Source: Defluviitaleaceae bacterium (GTDB lineage Bacteria; Bacillota; Clostridia; Lachnospirales; WRAX01). From it: 64,000 bases of DNA. Below are positions 5,622-62,831 of the stretch, one piece after another. Positions within the stretch are counted from its first letter, which is position 1. Every line of letters starts with the position of its first letter. A model generated the notes under the pieces. That model had not been told where the DNA came from, ran no database searches, and saw only the letters and a list, made by a program, of their open reading frames with translations. The position numbers and the translations under genes are program-made. Location of the stretch: assembly GCA_009780415.1 (NCBI GenBank), contig WRAC01000008.1, forward strand, positions 1 through 64,000, written 5' to 3'.

Positions 5622-7775
5622 CTATTCCGGCTGTCCGTCCGCTGGCTCTTCGTCCGTCTCAGCGCCCTCCATGGGAAGGGCTTCTTGGCGGAAGTCCTCT
5701 TTTGGTTCCTCGGCAGGAGGGTCGTCGATGATCCCCGTTTCGTCATAGGCTTCGTCGTATACTTCGTCATAGGCTTCGTCATATACTTCGTCATATGCCT
5801 CGCCGTAGTTTTCATCGTCGAGGTAGTCGAAGTAAATCTCGTTGTCCGCTACTTTTTTAGAGAGGCTGATGCGCTTCTGGTTTTTGTCGATAGCGGTGAT
5901 CTTTACTTTTATGATTTGGCCGATTTTAAGCTCTTCCTCAACCTTTTCAATATGGCGGCCCGCCACCTGCGATATGTGCACGAGGCCGTCCACACCGTCC
6001 TCAAGCTCTACAAACGCGCCGAATGAGGCGATCCGCGCAACCTTTCCGTCAACAATTGAGCCAACGGGGTATCTTTCCTCAATTTCCGCCCAGGGATCGG
6101 ACGTAACATCCTTTAGAGACAGGGAGATTTTACCTTTGTCGGGATCCAGCGCGATAACGACCACGGTAACCTCATTGCCCTCCTTCACGACATCCGTCAC
6201 GCGTCTGATACGGCCCCAGCTCATCTCGGAAATATGGATAAGCCCGTCAACGCCGCCCAAGTCCACAAACGCGCCAAACTGCGCTATGCGGCTGACTTTG
6301 CCGGTCAGCTTGTCGCCGATTTTGAACATCGCGAACGCCTTGTCTTTCTGCTCCTGAGCTTCCTTAGCGGCAAGCTCCTTGCGGCCCGCAACGATACGCT
6401 TGGCTTTCTTGTCGAATTCCAGGATGCTGAAATTGAACTCCTTGCCTTTCAGCTCGTTCAGGTCCGCCACAAATCTCTGCGCGGCCTGACTGGAGGGAAC
6501 GAACGTCCTTACGCCTTGTATAAGAGCGATGCACCCTCCTTTGACAATCTCCGTTATCTTTCCGGGAAGCGGCGTGCCGTTCTTAAAAGCTGCCTCAAGA
6601 TCAAGCATACTCTTTCTGCCGTCGGCATGCTTCTTGGAAAGCAGGACATTGCCCTCTCCGTCGTTAACCCTGGCGACATAAACGTCGATCTCATCACCGG
6701 GCTTTAAATCTTTTGCGGGATCCGCGTCAGCGTCGTCTGAATACTGGCCCTTTTGGATGATACCGTCGGATTTGTAGCCCAGGTCTACAAATACTTCGCC
6801 GTTCGCGACCTTGATTACTTTGCCCCTGACTGTCTCACCTGTGCGCAACACCATGTTGACACCCGCGATCATGTTCTCGAAGTTGCCTTCGGGGTTGTCC
6901 GCTGTTGCGCTGGGGTTGGGATTAATTTCGCTCATTAGTTTGACTGCCTCCTTTATCATGGCCGGAGATGTGGACGCTCCGGCTGTTACTCCAATTATTT
7001 TATCAGAATCAAATAAAATATTCAACAATTTTTCTTCAATTTCTCTAATATTTTCTATAAAAATTGTATTAATTTGATTCCTTTTGCATATATCAAATAA
7101 TTTAAGGCTGTTACTGCTTCCCGAATCGCCCAAAACGATCATTAAATCAACTTCCCGGGCCAATTCCCCGGCTTCTTTGTACCGTTCCGCCGTACCGCGG
7201 CATAAAGTATGCCTTATGTCGATATCCAGCCCCAGCCCGGTCAGATAATCAATAATCTCATTGTACAGTTCCGCGTCGAAGGTAGTCTGCGCAACCAAAG
7301 TATATTTTTCCTCGTGAGAAAACATATATTCCCCGGCTGTTTCAAGATTATTCAGGATAATTGCCCCGTAATCCGCGCAGCCGTTAATCCCCACGATTTC
7401 GGGATGATTTGCGTCGCCAATGATTATCAGTTTCCTGCCATCCGAAACCACGCCCTCCACAATTTCCTGTACGCGTTTTACATCGGGGCATGTGTAATCA
7501 AGCCAGTTTATCGCATGGGCTTCCAAGTCCTTATAAACTTCGGGCGGTACGCCATGGGAGCGGATAATAACCGTACCGGGCGGCCTGCCCGCAAGCTCCG
7601 CCGCGCTTCCGGCCTGCTCCACGCCTTTTTCCGCAAGCTCCGCCACAACACGTTTATTATGTATCACCGGGCCAAGCGTATACACCTTGCCCTTCGCGGC
7701 TTCCTTCAGCGCCGCCGTAACGATCCTGCCGACGCCGAAGCAAAACCCCGCGCTTTTCGCTATTTTTATCGTCAT
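5622..7775 (-). CDS. ispH: fusion of IspH (HMBPP reductase) and ribosomal protein S1
   Basis: Single polypeptide of 717 aa. Residues 1-281 are 4-hydroxy-3-methylbut-2-enyl diphosphate reductase, the last step of the MEP isoprenoid route. The three iron-sulfur cysteines lie in GFCFGV (12), DYTCPD (about 96) and TLCRGTAER (about 193), with substrate motifs SHGVPP and GDANHPEI. Residues from about 312 to 640 contain four S1 RNA-binding domains, as in short Firmicutes S1 proteins. This IspH-S1 fusion is a known clostridial arrangement. The C-terminal 75 residues are acidic and contain a tandem Y-D-E-A/V repeat. plsC and cmk lie upstream in the same operon, with a 4-base overlap to plsC. Confidence 0.96.
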   Translation of the reverse strand: MTIKIAKSAGFCFGVGRIVTAALKEAAKGKVYTLGPVIHNKRVVAELAEKGVEQAGSAAELAGRPPGTVIIRSHGVPPEVYKDLEAHAINWLDYTCPDVKRVQEIVEGVVSDGRKLIIIGDANHPEIVGINGCADYGAIILNNLETAGEYMFSHEEKYTLVAQTTFDAELYNEIIDYLTGLGLDIDIRHTLCRGTAERYKEAGELAREVDLMIVLGDSGSSNSLKLFDICKRNQINTIFIENIREIEEKLLNILFDSDKIIGVTAGASTSPAMIKEAVKLMSEINPNPSATADNPEGNFENMIAGVNMVLRTGETVRGKVIKVANGEVFVDLGYKSDGIIQKGQYSDDADADPAKDLKPGDEIDVYVARVNDGEGNVLLSKKHADGRKSMLDLEAAFKNGTPLPGKITEIVKGGCIALIQGVRTFVPSSQAAQRFVADLNELKGKEFNFSILEFDKKAKRIVAGRKELAAKEAQEQKDKAFAMFKIGDKLTGKVSRIAQFGAFVDLGGVDGLIHISEMSWGRIRRVTDVVKEGNEVTVVVIALDPDKGKISLSLKDVTSDPWAEIEERYPVGSIVDGKVARIASFGAFVELEDGVDGLVHISQVAGRHIEKVEEELKIGQIIKVKITAIDKNQKRISLSKKVADNEIYFDYLDDENYGEAYDEVYDEAYDEVYDEAYDETGIIDDPPAEEPKEDFRQEALPMEGAETDEEPADGQPE
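5733..5806 (-). repeat. tandem repeat encoding Y-D-E-A/V units in the S1 tail
   Basis: The minus strand codes for six consecutive units of the form Y-D-E plus A or V (first unit Y-G-E), at about residues 656-681 of the fusion. At DNA level this is an imperfect repeat with a 12-base unit and a 24-base higher-order period because A and V alternate. Confidence 0.75.
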
Positions 7776-14203: not shown

Positions 14204-14500
14204 ATGAGAAGCATTTCGCTTGTGAACATAGGTTTTGGCAACACCGTCGCCGCAAACCGCATTATCGCCGTTGTAAGCCCCGAATCGTCGCCCATAAAAC
14301 GGTTGGTGCAGGACGCGCGCGAGCAGGGCAGACTGATAGACGCCACCTACGGGCGGCGGACAAGGGCGGTCATTGTGTGCGACAATTCCAGCGTGGTGCT
14401 TACAAGCATACAGCCCGAAACCATAGCGGGCAGGATTACGGGTAAAAACGCCGAATATGGCGATACAGGCGAGACAGACGGAGATGCTGCGAATGATTAA
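14204..14500 (+). CDS. remA: RemA-family DNA-binding regulator (DUF370)
   Basis: Protein of 98 aa. The N-terminal 75 residues match RemA/YlzA, with [24 protein letters not shown] and [11 protein letters not shown] as recognisable parts. In Bacillus subtilis RemA activates matrix and osmoprotectant genes by wrapping DNA. Here it heads the gmk-rpoZ-priA-def-fmt run, a conserved Firmicutes order. The start follows GGAGG at 9 bases. The last 20 residues are variable. Confidence 0.94.
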
Positions 14501-14518: not shown

Positions 14519-15148
14519 TTGTCAATAATGACTACAGGCTCCCTGTTTATAATATCGGGGCCTTCCGGCTCCGGCAAAGGCACGGTGGTGAAGTCCCTTG
14601 CCTCCTCAAGCCCGGACTACGCGTTGTCCGTGTCCGTCACAACACGCAAAATGCGCGGGGGCGACCGCGAGGGCGTTGACTATTTTTTCAAGACCATGGA
14701 TGAATTCGTGGCTCTGCGCGATAATAACCAGCTCCTTGAACACGCACTCTTTGTGGGCAACCTGTACGGCACGCCGCGCTTTTATGTGGAGGAGCAGATA
14801 GCGAAAGGCAAGATTGTTCTGCTTGAGATTGAGGTTAACGGCGCGCTTCAAGTAAAGCAGAGATACCCTGAATGCGTGCTTATCTTCCTTGTACCGCCTA
14901 ATTTTACGGAATTACAGCACCGCCTTCAGTCACGCGGCACGGAGGATATCGAATCCATGCAGGCAAGGTTTTTCCGCGCGCGGGAGGAAATCATGCTTAT
15001 AAATAAATATGATTACCTTGTGGTGAACGATAAGGTGGAAAAGGCCGTGGAATGCATCCAAAACATAGCCTTTGCCGAGAAATTGCGCCCTTTCCGCCAG
15101 AAACAAATTGCTGAGGATTTTTTCGGGAACAGTAGCGGTTCAACTTAA
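14519..15148 (+). CDS. gmk: guanylate kinase
   Basis: Phosphorylates GMP to GDP; 209 aa. The P-loop GPSGSGKGT is near residue 14, and the GMP-binding motif SVTTRKMRGGDREGVDY is complete. The start is ambiguous: TTG at 14519 lies 5 bases after AGAAGGG, while the in-frame ATG at 14528 lies 14 bases after it. It follows remA by 18 bases. Confidence 0.95.
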   Translation: MSIMTTGSLFIISGPSGSGKGTVVKSLASSSPDYALSVSVTTRKMRGGDREGVDYFFKTMDEFVALRDNNQLLEHALFVGNLYGTPRFYVEEQIAKGKIVLLEIEVNGALQVKQRYPECVLIFLVPPNFTELQHRLQSRGTEDIESMQARFFRAREEIMLINKYDYLVVNDKVEKAVECIQNIAFAEKLRPFRQKQIAEDFFGNSSGST

Positions 15149-15195
15149 TAAGCCGCTAAGGTAATTATACTCATCATCATAGAAAGAGGGATCAT

Positions 15196-15768
15196 ATGCT
15201 TAGACCGTCGTACACGGAGCTTATGGACATCGCAAACCAGGACGCCGAAACAGATAACAAGATAACAAGCCGTTATTCAATAGTGATAGCGGCGGCGAAA
15301 AGGGCGCGGCAAATTATTGACGGCGCGGCCTATGACGCAAGCGGCGTACACACGGACAAGGCCGTTTCCATAGCCATAAACGAGATGCAGAGCGGGAAGA
15401 TCAAGATTTTCCCCGAAGGCCTTGAAAACAACGATTTCATGAAGTTCGCGCAGCTCAAACCCAGGGCGGTTAACAGGGCGGGCCAAGGGGTAGGTATAAG
15501 CGCCGATGCCGTTATCTCGTCCAAAGATTATGTCGGCGGGGATATAATGGATTACGGCGACGATATGGACGACGAATTGTTTGAGGACGAAGCCATCGGT
15601 ACGGACGCGAAAAAAGATTACGGCTTCCGCGCCGGGGGTTTTGAGGAGGACGGCGAATACGGCGGCGCGTCCGCCGGTGATTATGACGATTACGATTATG
15701 AAGAGGACAGCCTCGAAATGGAAATAGAGAACGACGACTTCAATTACGGCGGCGGGGAACCCAACTAA
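15196..15768 (+). CDS. rpoZ: RNA polymerase omega subunit with a long acidic C-terminal extension
   Basis: The first 75 residues match omega: MLRPSYTELM, the core helix around SRYSIVIAAAKRARQI and the KAVSIAINEMQSGKI segment that packs on beta'. Normal omega proteins have about 65-100 residues; this has 190. The last 80 residues carry about 30 Asp/Glu and many Gly/Tyr, giving a low-complexity, probably disordered tail. Omega aids assembly and stability of RNA polymerase. Its place after gmk is the usual one. The start ATG follows AAAGAGGG. Confidence 0.9.
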   Translation: MLRPSYTELMDIANQDAETDNKITSRYSIVIAAAKRARQIIDGAAYDASGVHTDKAVSIAINEMQSGKIKIFPEGLENNDFMKFAQLKPRAVNRAGQGVGISADAVISSKDYVGGDIMDYGDDMDDELFEDEAIGTDAKKDYGFRAGGFEEDGEYGGASAGDYDDYDYEEDSLEMEIENDDFNYGGGEPN

Positions 15769-15771
15769 CAT

Positions 15772-18006
15772 ATGGAAACGGAATGCGCGGAGGTCATTGT
15801 CTCCATCATGCGCGCGGAGGTTGACCGTGTGTTCCACTATGCCGTACCGGATGAACTGAAACCGGTTCTTACGCCCGGTCACCGCGTCGCGGTGCCTTTC
15901 GGGGGCAGGAATGTTGAGGGCTGTGTCGTCGGTTTTTCAAAGCCCTCAGTCGATCCCAGCCGCATAAAGGCTATAACCGCGGTGTTGGATGATTATCCGC
16001 TGCTTACTCCCGTTATGCTGGAGCTTGCCCGCTGGATGAAAACAAAGTATTATACGACCCTTGCGGCTTGCCTGCGCTGTGTCGCCCCCTCCTGGACCGG
16101 ATCGGCCAAACGCGCTAAGACGCTTTTTGTATGCATAAACGGAGGCGCGGGGTTTGCGGAAGAGCTTTCGCATGTAAATGAAAAAGGCGGGCCGCAAGCC
16201 CTTGTCATGAAACTTCTTTCCGAGCGCGGAGCCACGGCTCTTGCGCCTTTGCTGAAGGAACTGGGAATATCGGCTTCCCCCGTCCATACTCTTGTAAAAA
16301 AGGGTTTGGTGATATTGGAGGAACGGTCTTCCGCCGGCGTTTCACGTTCCGATATTGCGTATGAACCCGGCAGGAGCTTTAGCCTTACGGATGAGCAGGC
16401 CGAAGCCATCGAAACCCTTCTGAACACTCAATCGGAAAAACCGGGCAGGATGTGGCTGCTGCACGGCGTAACCGGCAGCGGCAAAACCGAGATATACATG
16501 CGGCTTATAGAGAAAGCCCTTGAGGCCGGAAAACAGGCCGTAATGCTGGTGCCGGAGATTTCCCTGACACCTCAGGCCGTTGACGCTTTTAAGCAGCGTT
16601 TCGGCGCGGTGGTTTCCGTCACGCACTCGCGGCTTACGCCGGCTGAGCGCGTAGCGGAATGGCAGGCCGCAAGGGAGGGCCGCGTGTCCGTCATGATCGG
16701 CCCGCGCTCCGCCGTGTTTACGCCTTTTAATAACCTTGGCACAATTATAATCGACGAGGAGCATGAAAAAACATATGTCTCCGAGACCTCGCCCAAATAC
16801 GCCGTTATAGATGTGGCGGAAAAGCTGTCCAAACTGACCGGGGCGGCTGTGGTGCTGGGTTCAGCGACGCCCTCGGTGGAAACATTCTACCGCGCCAAAT
16901 GCGAGGAAATAGGGTTGATAACGTTAAAAAAACGGGTAAACAACCGCTTCCCCGATGTGGAAACCGCGGATTTGCGTACGGAGCTTGCCGCGGGCAACCG
17001 TTCTATTTTCAGCCGACGGCTTCTGGACGCGATGGACGAAAACCTGAAACGCGGGCATCAGACGATATTATTTATGAACCGGCGCGGGCATTCGACGTTC
17101 GTATCTTGCCGAACCTGCGGTTTTGTGCTGGAATGCGGGCATTGCAGCGTTAATTATACATATCATATACAGTCGCAGCGGATGCTTTGCCATTATTGCG
17201 GGGCTGCGGAGCGCCCGCCAAGCCTGTGTCCCGTGTGCGAATCCGTACATATCCGCTATTTCGGCGTGGGTACGCAGAAGATTGAGGAAGAGGTTAGGCG
17301 GTTGTTCCCGGGTTGCTCCGTCCTGCGTATGGACATGGACACCACGGCCAGGAAAGACGGTCACGAGAGCATCATACGCCGCTTTGCCACGGGACAGGCG
17401 CAAATCCTTGTCGGTACGCAGATGATTGCCAAGGGATTGAATTTTCCAAACGTTTCGCTGGTTGGGATAGTTGACGCGGACACGGCATTGAATACAGGCG
17501 ATTTCCGGTCGGCGGAGACGGCTTTCCAGCTTATTACGCAAGTTTCGGGCCGCGCGGGCCGCGCCGACGTGCCGGGCAGGGTTATTATCCAGACCTATAA
17601 CCCCGAACATTACAGCGTATCCTTCGCAAAGGAAGGCGATTACAACAGTTTTTACGAGCATGAGATTCGCGTACGCAAAACCTTGGGGTATCCGCCATTT
17701 GGCGATATTTTTATGGCCCTCATGTCTTGCCCGGACGAAAAGCGCCTGATCAACACGCAAAACGAACTTGCCCGGCTGATGAAAGCATATAACCGCAAGG
17801 GGTTCTTTGAAATACTCGGCCCGGCCCCGGCGATGGTATCAAAGATAAATAATATGTATCGGTGGAAAATATTAATTAAAAGCAGTGCGGTTGGCGAAGA
17901 CATCTTATTGCATTTTGCTTTTTACTGTGTGGACAAGCTTAAAAACCGCTGTGATTTGGACGGCGTAAATTTGAATTTAACGTTGAATCCGCGTATTTTA
18001 GTTTAA
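15772..18006 (+). CDS. priA: primosomal replication restart helicase PriA
   Basis: Superfamily 2 helicase of 744 aa that reloads the replisome at stalled forks. Walker A is HGVTGSGKTEIYMRL (about 231), Walker B IIIDEEHEKTY (about 325). Eight zinc-ligand cysteines lie in the C-x-x-C pairs from CRTCGFVLECGHC to CPVC (about 446-487). The N-terminal DNA-binding domain is present. It begins 3 bases after the rpoZ stop; the coaBC gene often found between them is absent here. Confidence 0.96.
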   Translation: METECAEVIVSIMRAEVDRVFHYAVPDELKPVLTPGHRVAVPFGGRNVEGCVVGFSKPSVDPSRIKAITAVLDDYPLLTPVMLELARWMKTKYYTTLAACLRCVAPSWTGSAKRAKTLFVCINGGAGFAEELSHVNEKGGPQALVMKLLSERGATALAPLLKELGISASPVHTLVKKGLVILEERSSAGVSRSDIAYEPGRSFSLTDEQAEAIETLLNTQSEKPGRMWLLHGVTGSGKTEIYMRLIEKALEAGKQAVMLVPEISLTPQAVDAFKQRFGAVVSVTHSRLTPAERVAEWQAAREGRVSVMIGPRSAVFTPFNNLGTIIIDEEHEKTYVSETSPKYAVIDVAEKLSKLTGAAVVLGSATPSVETFYRAKCEEIGLITLKKRVNNRFPDVETADLRTELAAGNRSIFSRRLLDAMDENLKRGHQTILFMNRRGHSTFVSCRTCGFVLECGHCSVNYTYHIQSQRMLCHYCGAAERPPSLCPVCESVHIRYFGVGTQKIEEEVRRLFPGCSVLRMDMDTTARKDGHESIIRRFATGQAQILVGTQMIAKGLNFPNVSLVGIVDADTALNTGDFRSAETAFQLITQVSGRAGRADVPGRVIIQTYNPEHYSVSFAKEGDYNSFYEHEIRVRKTLGYPPFGDIFMALMSCPDEKRLINTQNELARLMKAYNRKGFFEILGPAPAMVSKINNMYRWKILIKSSAVGEDILLHFAFYCVDKLKNRCDLDGVNLNLTLNPRILV

Positions 18007-18021
18007 TTAAGGAGCGATACA

Positions 18022-18534
18022 ATGGCAATCAGGAATTTACGGTTGTACGGCGACAATCTTTTGCGCAAGAAATCCAAACCCGTTGAAGAGATAGACGGCA
18101 AATTGCTTTCGCTTTTGGACGACATGCGCGACACGTTGAAAAAACACAACGGCATGGGTTTAGCCGCACCGCAGGTTGGCGTGTTAAAACGTGTCGCGAT
18201 TATCGATATTGAGCTGAATGAGGACGACGAACCAGACCCGGAGTTGCAATACGGGTTTTATGAGTTGATAAACCCGGTTATCCTTGAGGAAGACGGTGAA
18301 GAGGAGCAGTCGGAGGCCTGTCTTAGTATGCCTGGTAAAAACGCGCCCGTAAAACGTCCGGTACGAGTACTGGTTAAGGCGCAAAACAGAGACGGAAACG
18401 AATACGAGCTTGAGGGCATGGGTGTTCTGGCGCGGGCGCTGTGCCATGAGCTGGATCATCTGGACGGCGTTATGTATGTTGACTTGATTGAGCCGGGTAC
18501 GCTTAGGGATAATAAGGATACGGACGACGAATGA
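18022..18534 (+). CDS. def: peptide deformylase
   Basis: Removes the N-formyl group from nascent proteins. All three motifs are present in the 170 aa: [10 protein letters not shown] (about 46), EACLSMP (about 96, variant of EGCLSVP) and HELDHLDG (about 142) with both metal-binding histidines. It overlaps the start of fmt by 4 bases (ATGA), coupling formylation and deformylation genes. The ribosome binding site is AAGGAG. Confidence 0.96.
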
Positions 18535-19484
18535 ACGGATTGAACATAGTTTTTTTTGGTGCGCCGGAGTTTGCCGCCGCGAGTTTGGCGGCTTTGATAA
18601 AATCAAAACATAAAATTACGGCAGTTGTCAGCCAGCCCGACAGGCCAAAAGGGCGCAGCGGAAAACCCGTACCCACGCCTGTTTCCGTTTTGGCGGAAAA
18701 CGCGGGTATCCCAATCCTGCGCCCGGAAAAGGTGCGGGATAATGATTTTATTGCGGAATTAAGCCAAATACCCGCCGATATCTTTATTGTCGCGGCGTAC
18801 GGGCAGTTTTTAAATAGGAAATTACTTGAAATGGCGCGTTTCGGCGCAGTTAATGTACACGCCTCGCTTCTGCCTAAATACCGCGGGGCGTCGCCCGTGG
18901 CAAGCGCGATAATAAACGGCGAAATAAAGACCGGTGTGTCCATCATGCAAATGGAAAGGGGGATGGACACCGGCCCGGTTCTTCATTCCCTTGAAATCGA
19001 AATAGACCGCGGGGACACTTGCGGCAGCCTGACGGAAAAGCTTGCCGTGCTTGGCGGTACCGCGCTTTTGGATGCTCTTGATTTAATTGCCGCAGGCTGC
19101 GCCGTACCCGTGGCGCAAAATAACAGCGAGGTCACCTATGCCCCGCTGCTTACAAAAGAGATGGGTTTGCTGGATTTCAACAAGCCTGCGTTGGCTATTT
19201 ACAACCAAGTGCGCGGGCTGGATCCCTGGCCCGGCTCGCATATTGAACTGGACGGCAGAATGCTGAAGGTTTGGCGCGCGGATATCGGCTCGGAACGCCA
19301 TACGCTTCCCCCAGGCACAGTTATATCCGCCGCATCCGGTATGATCAGTATCGCATGCGGCAACTGTGAAACTATTGATTTAAAGGAAGTTCAAACCCCG
19401 GGCGGGAAGCGTTTGACAGTCTCTGAGTATATTAAAGGAAACCCTATTATTGCGGGCGGGACGCCCGCGCTCCCGGAGTTATAG
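18531..19484 (+). CDS. fmt: methionyl-tRNA formyltransferase
   Basis: Formylates initiator Met-tRNA using 10-formyl-tetrahydrofolate; 317 aa. The catalytic signature is [16 protein letters not shown] (about 104), with the C-terminal OB-like tRNA-binding domain complete. The final codons, encoding [10 protein letters not shown], are supplied by a copy of a GC-rich dispersed repeat, so the natural C-terminus appears to have been replaced or extended. Its stop overlaps the end of the converging dcd gene by 6 bases. Confidence 0.95.
19451..19474 (+). repeat. GC-rich palindromic dispersed repeat, copy 1 (inside fmt 3' end)
   Basis: A 24-base block identical to copies at 35138 and 57949. Its core is a hairpin GCGGGC-GGGAC-GCCCGC followed by GCTCCC. 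Here it codes for the last residues of Fmt. Confidence 0.8.
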
Positions 19485-62291: not shown

Positions 62292-62831
62292 TTATCTGCT
62301 AACCATCATCTCAGCCAAAACCTCGTAATCCGTGCCGGGCACAAGGCGGAAAGTCCCGCGTGCCATGCGCTGGGTATATCCTTTTTCAATCAGAACCCTG
62401 ACAAAGTCCGACGCGCTTTCGATAACCCCCGAATTTTTAAGGATTTGAGCGATCTGCGTAGCCGTAATCCCCTCCGGTATCCGCACCGTCACAAGCCCGT
62501 CCGCGTTATCAAAAGCCGCATCCGTACCATTTTCTAATTGATCAATTTCCCCAATTCCATCTATTTCCTCCGATTCATCAATTTCCTCTATTTCATCAAT
62601 TTCCCCACTCTCCAGATGAGCGTACCGCATCCCAAGCTCCATCGCCCTTTCGATGATCTCATCGTCGGTCATAACAACATACGCCGGCTCGGCTTCCCTT
62701 CCGTTCCCGTAAGCGGAATCCGCGCGCAGCTCGCCGCTTTCGGGAAGCCTTGACGTATAAACAAAATAAAAAGCCAAACAGGAAATGACCATTCCCATCC
62801 CTATACCGAAGAGAATGCGTCTTTTTGGCAT
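62292..62831 (-). CDS. small MltG-like protein with only the N-terminal LysM-like domain
   Basis: Protein of 179 aa. A single N-terminal membrane segment (about 6-26) is followed by an extracellular part with an acidic E-I-D-E repeat (about 77-100) and a YceG-like region VTVRIPEGITATQIAQILKN (about 114). The catalytic domain of the endolytic transglycosylase MltG is missing, so it is probably not a lytic enzyme. Such short forms occur at the end of clostridial flagellar operons. Confidence 0.7.
   Translation of the reverse strand: MPKRRILFGIGMGMVISCLAFYFVYTSRLPESGELRADSAYGNGREAEPAYVVMTDDEIIERAMELGMRYAHLESGEIDEIEEIDESEEIDGIGEIDQLENGTDAAFDNADGLVTVRIPEGITATQIAQILKNSGVIESASDFVRVLIEKGYTQRMARGTFRLVPGTDYEVLAEMMVSR

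Follow-up and report, generated by a model that had tools for sequence, protein, structure and literature searches.

An RNA polymerase omega subunit from a bacterium of the Bacillota, ordinary in its core by sequence and predicted fold, continues for 118 residues beyond that core into a strongly acidic, predicted disordered tail, which is shared across its family and which selection appears, from sequence comparisons, to maintain. The usual picture of omega is of a small protein that helps RNA polymerase assemble and has no accessory domain. Disordered omega C-termini are already known; long acidic ones in Bacillota are apparently new, since no description was found in the titles and abstract starts of open-licence PMC papers, a corpus that does not include preprints. 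The gene lies in a 64,000-nt stretch of DNA, here called the window in its entirety, from a draft genome of 2.53 Mb in 85 contigs (G000), whose family (f1) is represented by 16 genomes in our set. The features of rpoZ and its neighborhood are as follows.

14204..14500, + strand: RemA-like gene, upstream of gmk (PRK04323, 131.7 bits, cut-off 87)
14519..15148, + strand: gmk, guanylate kinase, neighbor of rpoZ (TIGR03263)
15183..15190, + strand: AAAGAGGG, likely rpoZ ribosome-binding site, 5 bases 5′ of the ATG (from reading the sequence)
15196..15768, + strand: rpoZ, RNA polymerase omega subunit, 190 aa plus stop (Pfam RNA_pol_Rpb6 and NCBIfam rpoZ, over cut-off)
15196..15411, + strand: folded omega core, residues 1–72 (Pfam 21–71, pLDDT, structural alignment)
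15412..15525, + strand: linker, residues 73–110 (alignment; pLDDT block means 44–71)
15526..15765, + strand: acidic tail, residues 111–190, predicted disordered (composition, genome background, pLDDT)
15772..18006, + strand: priA (TIGR00595)
18022..18534, + strand: def, peptide deformylase (TIGR00079)
18531..19484, + strand: fmt, methionyl-tRNA formyltransferase (TIGR00460)

The order RemA-like gene, gmk, rpoZ, priA, def, fmt is a normal operon position for rpoZ, as a first-pass annotation of this DNA had held. The gmk gene stands directly upstream of rpoZ, a linkage tabulated in the accessible part of one survey (PMC9973325), and the priA ATG begins 3 bases past the rpoZ stop; the RemA-like gene falls slightly under the RemA equivalog cut-off (135.6 vs. 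140). The annotated identity as omega is confirmed by profile matches over cut-off, to RNA_pol_Rpb6 (PF01192) at residues 21–71 (52.3 bits, cut-off 26), the sole Pfam match in the protein, and to NCBIfam rpoZ (TIGR00690) at residues 20–70 (35.8 bits, cut-off 23.6). The gene is single copy, being the one PF01192 match in the 2.53 Mb of the genome. In an AlphaFold model built from 42 sequences, residues 1–70 have pLDDT block means of 84–95, and residues 1–73 align with the omega of Clostridium thermocellum (8i23_E) over 62 residues with an rmsd of 1.6 and a VIA-align Z of 9.6. Judged by sequence and predicted fold, the window ORF is RNA polymerase omega. It resembles the omegas of C. thermocellum and C. 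difficile (7l7b_E) in core sequence, fold, and gmk–rpoZ linkage, but differs from them in length, at 190 aa compared with 78 and 88 aa, respectively; the 19 matched PDB omega sequences span 59–102 aa.

The first-pass annotation had the core end at residue 75–95. Its succession of core and extension stands, but the boundary lies earlier, at about residue 72, where the Pfam match ends (residue 71) and the pLDDT block mean falls from 92 (residues 61–70) to 71 and then 57, with means of 44–57 beyond residue 80. The extension therefore comprises 118 aa, the last 80 of which are strongly acidic. The count of about 30 Asp/Glu in the last 80 residues of a 190-aa protein proved accurate: there are 30 D/E and 3 K/R (computed charge −27 at pH 7), and 34 D/E and 8 K/R in the entire extension. 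Composition and low pLDDT together are consistent with a disordered acidic C-terminal region of the kind found in the delta subunit, the disorder being predicted by the model.

Such a tail is rare in its own genome. Acidic excess, defined as D+E minus K+R and counted over the last 80 residues, averages 1.0 (SD 5.0) across 334 ORFs of at least 150 aa, greedily chosen without overlap from 464 kb of the genome (the window plus 20 stretches of 20 kb). An excess of at least 27 occurs in three of them, namely, omega, an IspH–S1 fusion, and a MotB-like protein. The acidic omega tail is more than chance would provide. The neighboring gene product, Gmk, offers a matched control: it ends no more than 13 residues past its profile match, and the net acidic excess of its last 60 residues does not exceed 6, at all 14 f1 loci and at 15 of 17 loci of a sister clade, the other two being incomplete and L004, L051, and L066 being left out. 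As for the two other acidic-tailed proteins, the IspH (LytB) fused to S1 domains (window 5622–7775, − strand), the second acidic-tailed machinery protein of the window, ends in an acidic EAYDEVYDE-repeat tail with 31 D/E and 4 K/R in its last 80 residues, and the MotB-like protein (L180, 11503–12588, − strand) has an acidic C-terminal tail with 27 D/E and no K/R over the same length.

The relatives were gathered through a PriA search, used in place of a search of contigs with the omega protein as query, which had returned none. A comparison of rpoZ lengths among related genomes, the check proposed with the first-pass annotation, finds acidic tails of 64–150 aa with a net acidic excess of 21–47 in all 14 omegas found in the 16 f1 genomes; no omega was found in G006 and G012, which are 86% and 68% complete. 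Per residue, the window tail is the least acidic of the 14 (0.22). The nearest named relative (L031) has a PriA 64% identical to that of the window. Isolate codes such as that of L031 presumably point to termite guts, and the lineage bearing the acidic omega tail consists mostly of uncultured bacteria.

The wider survey of lengths in the order, class, and phylum drew on the matches listed, best scores first. Within the same order, the fetched members of two further families carry tails of 80–138 aa (f5) and 43–117 aa (f12), those of f6 include two long tails (G237, 85 aa; G279, 66 aa), and the remaining fetched omegas end in tails of 1–54 aa. Outside the order but within the class, 29 of the 30 top-scoring omegas (L141–L170) end 3–16 aa past the core and one ends 37 aa past it; many of the 30 have a basic RTKxGIK-like end. 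A further 12 class members were fetched because of their long frames. Two, both in f48, bear acidic omega tails, of 138 aa (G376) and of at least 439 aa running off the contig end (G350); a third (G659, f105) has an 81-aa tail with 20 D/E and 5 K/R; the other nine have tails of 7–55 aa, several of them acidic. The G350 frame (L207, 1700–3220) is itself unusual in that the residues following omega are acidic first, then rich in A/K/S/E repeats, and open to the contig end. Long frames were likewise the reason for fetching 14 phylum members: 10 owe their length to sequence upstream of the core, with C-terminal tails of 5–8 aa, and the other four have tails of 27–41 aa. Altogether, 164 distinct omegas were collected, a set enriched for long tails and thus no estimate of frequency: in all 50 tails longer than 60 aa, the net acidic excess reaches at least 15, and in the 70 tails of at most 10 aa it ranges from −4 to +4.

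The history of the tail was traced on a PriA tree of 56 rows, made up of the window plus whichever of 80 named loci contain both an omega and a PriA frame of at least 550 aa. Tails of at least 60 aa imply at least four changes on this tree, two of them forced by well-supported branches, a count in which gains and losses are not distinguishable and which leaves the f6 and f48 cases outside; shuffled tail labels give a mean of 18.8 changes, and none of 500 shuffles was as low as observed. Selection was assessed on a choice of 21 pairs that have sequences in common. Many of the pairs are saturated at synonymous sites, including the single one in which the window takes part (L001/L113). In all 21, tail pN is below tail pS, and tail dN is above core dN. 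Two close pairs from other clades give a tail dN/dS of about 0.08 (L043/L044, 0.035/0.439; L057/L059, 0.091/1.101). At substituted tail positions, the share of D/E is 31% in f1 (14 rows) and 29% in the sister clade (17 of 20 alignment rows, L004, L051, and L066 being left out), compared with 13% and 10% at substituted core positions. Thus, acidity is kept while the tail sequence drifts, and the tail appears, from these sequence comparisons, to be kept by selection.

Short motifs accompany the acidic run. An LPTxIDDxFV-like linker motif aligns in 10 of the 14 f1 omegas and is absent from the window omega and its nearest relative; the window linker is partly common to that relative (G004/L113), in KPR..NR and (V/A)IS(S/A)KDY. 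In the sister clade, 14 of 20 rows carry S(K/R)DDL, mostly as SKDDLREDLK-like sequences. A single linker motif for all three clades was rejected: hhalign gives a probability of at most 0.1% for each of the three clade pairs, and the score of f1 against the sister clade (6.3) lies within 30 column-shuffled controls (mean 6.1), which cover that pair only.

Several known systems resemble this omega in part. Disordered omega C-terminal regions of 15–63 residues occur in Chlamydiae, Rickettsia, Wolbachia, and other obligate intracellular bacteria, as the accessible part of PMC9973325 describes; the word "acidic" is absent from its main text. In these omegas, as in that of the window, a C-terminal region predicted to be disordered follows the conserved core, but the window extension is 118 residues long, strongly acidic, and found in a Bacillota lineage. 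A closer functional parallel is Bacillus delta (RpoE), whose residues 91–173, in the available portions of PMC7749165, are disordered and acidic, with a net charge of −47. The same portions report that delta of B. subtilis displaces DNA and RNA from RNA polymerase, helped by its acidic region, and that omega is lost when delta binds. Both proteins have a folded N-terminal anchor and, C-terminal to it, an acidic disordered region that is similar in length (83 aa in delta); however, as far as that source extends, the delta anchor is another domain, situated at the main channel, and of different origin, and the net charge of −47 contrasts with −26 for the extension of the window omega, which also lacks the HARE-HTH N-terminal domain (PF05066) that characterizes delta.

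Two further parallels lie outside the Bacillota. RPB6, the eukaryotic homologue of omega, has a flexible N-terminal tail that cryo-EM does not show; through its acidic residues this tail touches basic ones in the PH domain of TFIIH p62, according to the accessible text of PMC8754651. An acidic flexible tail is thus common to both proteins; that of RPB6 lies N-terminal to the core and has a eukaryotic partner, TFIIH p62, in what the source makes available, unlike the window tail, which is C-terminal. We infer that the two tails are of independent origin. Pseudomonas SutA likewise has an arm rich in D/E, which has been proposed to insert into a positively charged region of RNA polymerase, but in contrast to omega it is a separate protein that binds the beta protrusion (PMC9300723, in its available part).

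Other parts of RNA polymerase were surveyed in 58 genomes. PF05066 matches occur in two (G012 and G040) and not in G000; the matching proteins, with 337 aa of open frame and a 154-aa ORF, respectively, lack the acidic tail of delta, and the former (L119, 1396–2406) is a HARE-HTH protein of 337 residues of open frame that is not delta. A search with PF05066 thus found no true delta in any of the 58 genomes, whether their omega is long- or short-tailed. Since no delta was found even in short-tailed members, its absence does not predict the tail, and the idea that the tail offsets delta loss genome by genome is not supported. A replacement of sigma region 1.1 by the tail was rejected, as region 1.1 matches occur in 53 of the 58 genomes, G000 included. 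HelD is over cut-off in 17 of the 58 genomes; G000 scores 491 bits with neighbors in frame (cut-off 419), yet just three of the 16 f1 genomes (G000, G004, and G006) exceed the cut-off, so HelD as a fixed partner of the tail is not supported either.

Acidic stretches also appear elsewhere on the enzyme. Of 12 f1 sigma-A proteins read, eight have a long acidic linker after region 1.1 (G001, G002, G010, G005, G014, G015, G013, and G012; loci L192–L199); those of G000, G004, G006, and G007 have none, that of G007 bearing an acidic N-terminal stretch. Beta-prime ends were compared in an alignment of 29 of 30 loci (L266 left out), in which the sequences of G006 and G022 are truncated and that of G032 ends out of frame. 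Beta-prime of G019 (f5, L254) ends in a long acidic extension, alongside a 115-aa omega tail. Acidic beta-prime ends occur also in G023 and G020, whose omega tails measure 30 and 18 aa, and so an acidic surface there does not depend on omega. The beta-prime C-terminus of G000 is short, with no compensating basic extension.

What the tail might do is suggested chiefly by analogy. The first-pass annotation had raised DNA mimicry or contact with sigma or other factors, and both are possible: the acidic tail of Bacillus delta is a close functional precedent for a nucleic-acid mimic (PMC7749165, available portions), and the acidic tail of RPB6 is one for contact with a factor (PMC8754651, accessible text). 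The reading we favor, while giving it somewhat less than an even chance, is that an ordinary omega carries a 118-residue polyanionic arm on RNA polymerase that acts like the acidic tail of delta. Because omega presumably sits on beta-prime, it would tether the predicted disordered arm at the enzyme and provide a high local negative charge there. The arm would then compete with or repel nucleic acid at basic surfaces and channels and might lower non-specific DNA and RNA binding and aid the release and recycling of RNA polymerase, in a group where no true delta was found. Counting in its favor are the family-wide tails, the acidity of every collected tail longer than 60 aa, pN below pS, the kept acidity, the Gmk control, the rarity in the genome, the low pLDDT, the two PF05066 matches being unlike delta, the presence of HelD in G000, and the delta precedent. 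Against it count the fast evolution of the tail, as weakly constrained disorder would show, the position of the window tail as the least acidic per residue of 14, its part in a single, saturated pair among the 21, the lack of any delta match in short-tailed genomes too, HelD over cut-off in just three f1 genomes, and the acidic beta-prime ends that accompany short omega tails.

The delta-like action is favored over two alternatives, each of which we regard as unlikely though worth serious weight. In the first, disordered acidic extensions accumulate unspecifically on abundant machinery proteins, for solubility or under crowding, and the omega tail has no role of its own. Such drift would be in keeping with the fast evolution of the tail and with the further acidic tails and linkers noted above, in the IspH–S1 fusion, the MotB-like protein, sigma-A of eight of 12 f1 genomes, and the beta-prime C-termini of G019, G023, G020, and others. 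However, it sits poorly with the scarcity of such tails (3 of 334 sampled ORFs), with a neighboring Gmk that has no acidic tail at any of 29 complete loci, with tail pN below pS and acidity kept at substituted sites, and with long acidic omega tails in f48, outside the order. The second alternative, about as doubtful, is a docking arm, in which the clade-specific short motifs and the acidic run would bind a transcription or coupling factor, much as the acidic residues of the RPB6 tail contact the p62 PH domain (PMC8754651, accessible text). The recurrence of the LPTxIDDxFV-like motif in f1 and of S(K/R)DDL in the sister clade speaks for such docking, but hhalign detects no likeness among the tails of the three clades, and the window omega and its nearest relative lack the former motif. 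Finally, an assembly, sequencing, or frame error joining two genes, which the first-pass annotation had named as a possible refutation, merits almost no credence and is rejected together with gene fusion, given that the frame is open without stops, that the same architecture recurs in all 14 f1 omegas and in other families and assemblies, and that tail pN is below pS in 21 of 21 pairs of relatives.

A selected acidic arm on omega, possibly acquired more than once, would amount to a natural experiment on tethered polyanions at RNA polymerase, in genomes where no delta was detected. The tail may serve to restrain nucleic acids or partner proteins at the enzyme. Furthermore, the omega of model species of Bacillota is not representative of that in this order. 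Should the arm prove to clear nucleic acid or to dock a factor, it would be a bacterial analogue of the RPB6 tail. A bolder proposition, to which we attach only a small probability, is that in this Bacillota lineage, where no delta was detected, omega came to bear a polyanionic arm, perhaps on separate occasions, and that the arm now does the nucleic-acid clearing of delta, as a bacterial counterpart of the RPB6 tail; the acidic sigma-A linkers and beta-prime ends seen in some relatives would belong to the same electrostatic remodeling.

Two smaller acidic frames deserve mention in their own right. One (L183, 7374–7727, − strand) is a 117-aa ORF composed mostly of Asp/Glu, with poly-Asp runs and no Pfam match, possibly a free-standing acidic protein, possibly just a simple repeat. 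The other (window 62292–62831, − strand) is a 179-aa ORF that includes an acidic IDEIEEIDESEEIDGIGEID stretch and matches YceG weakly, under the curated cut-off.
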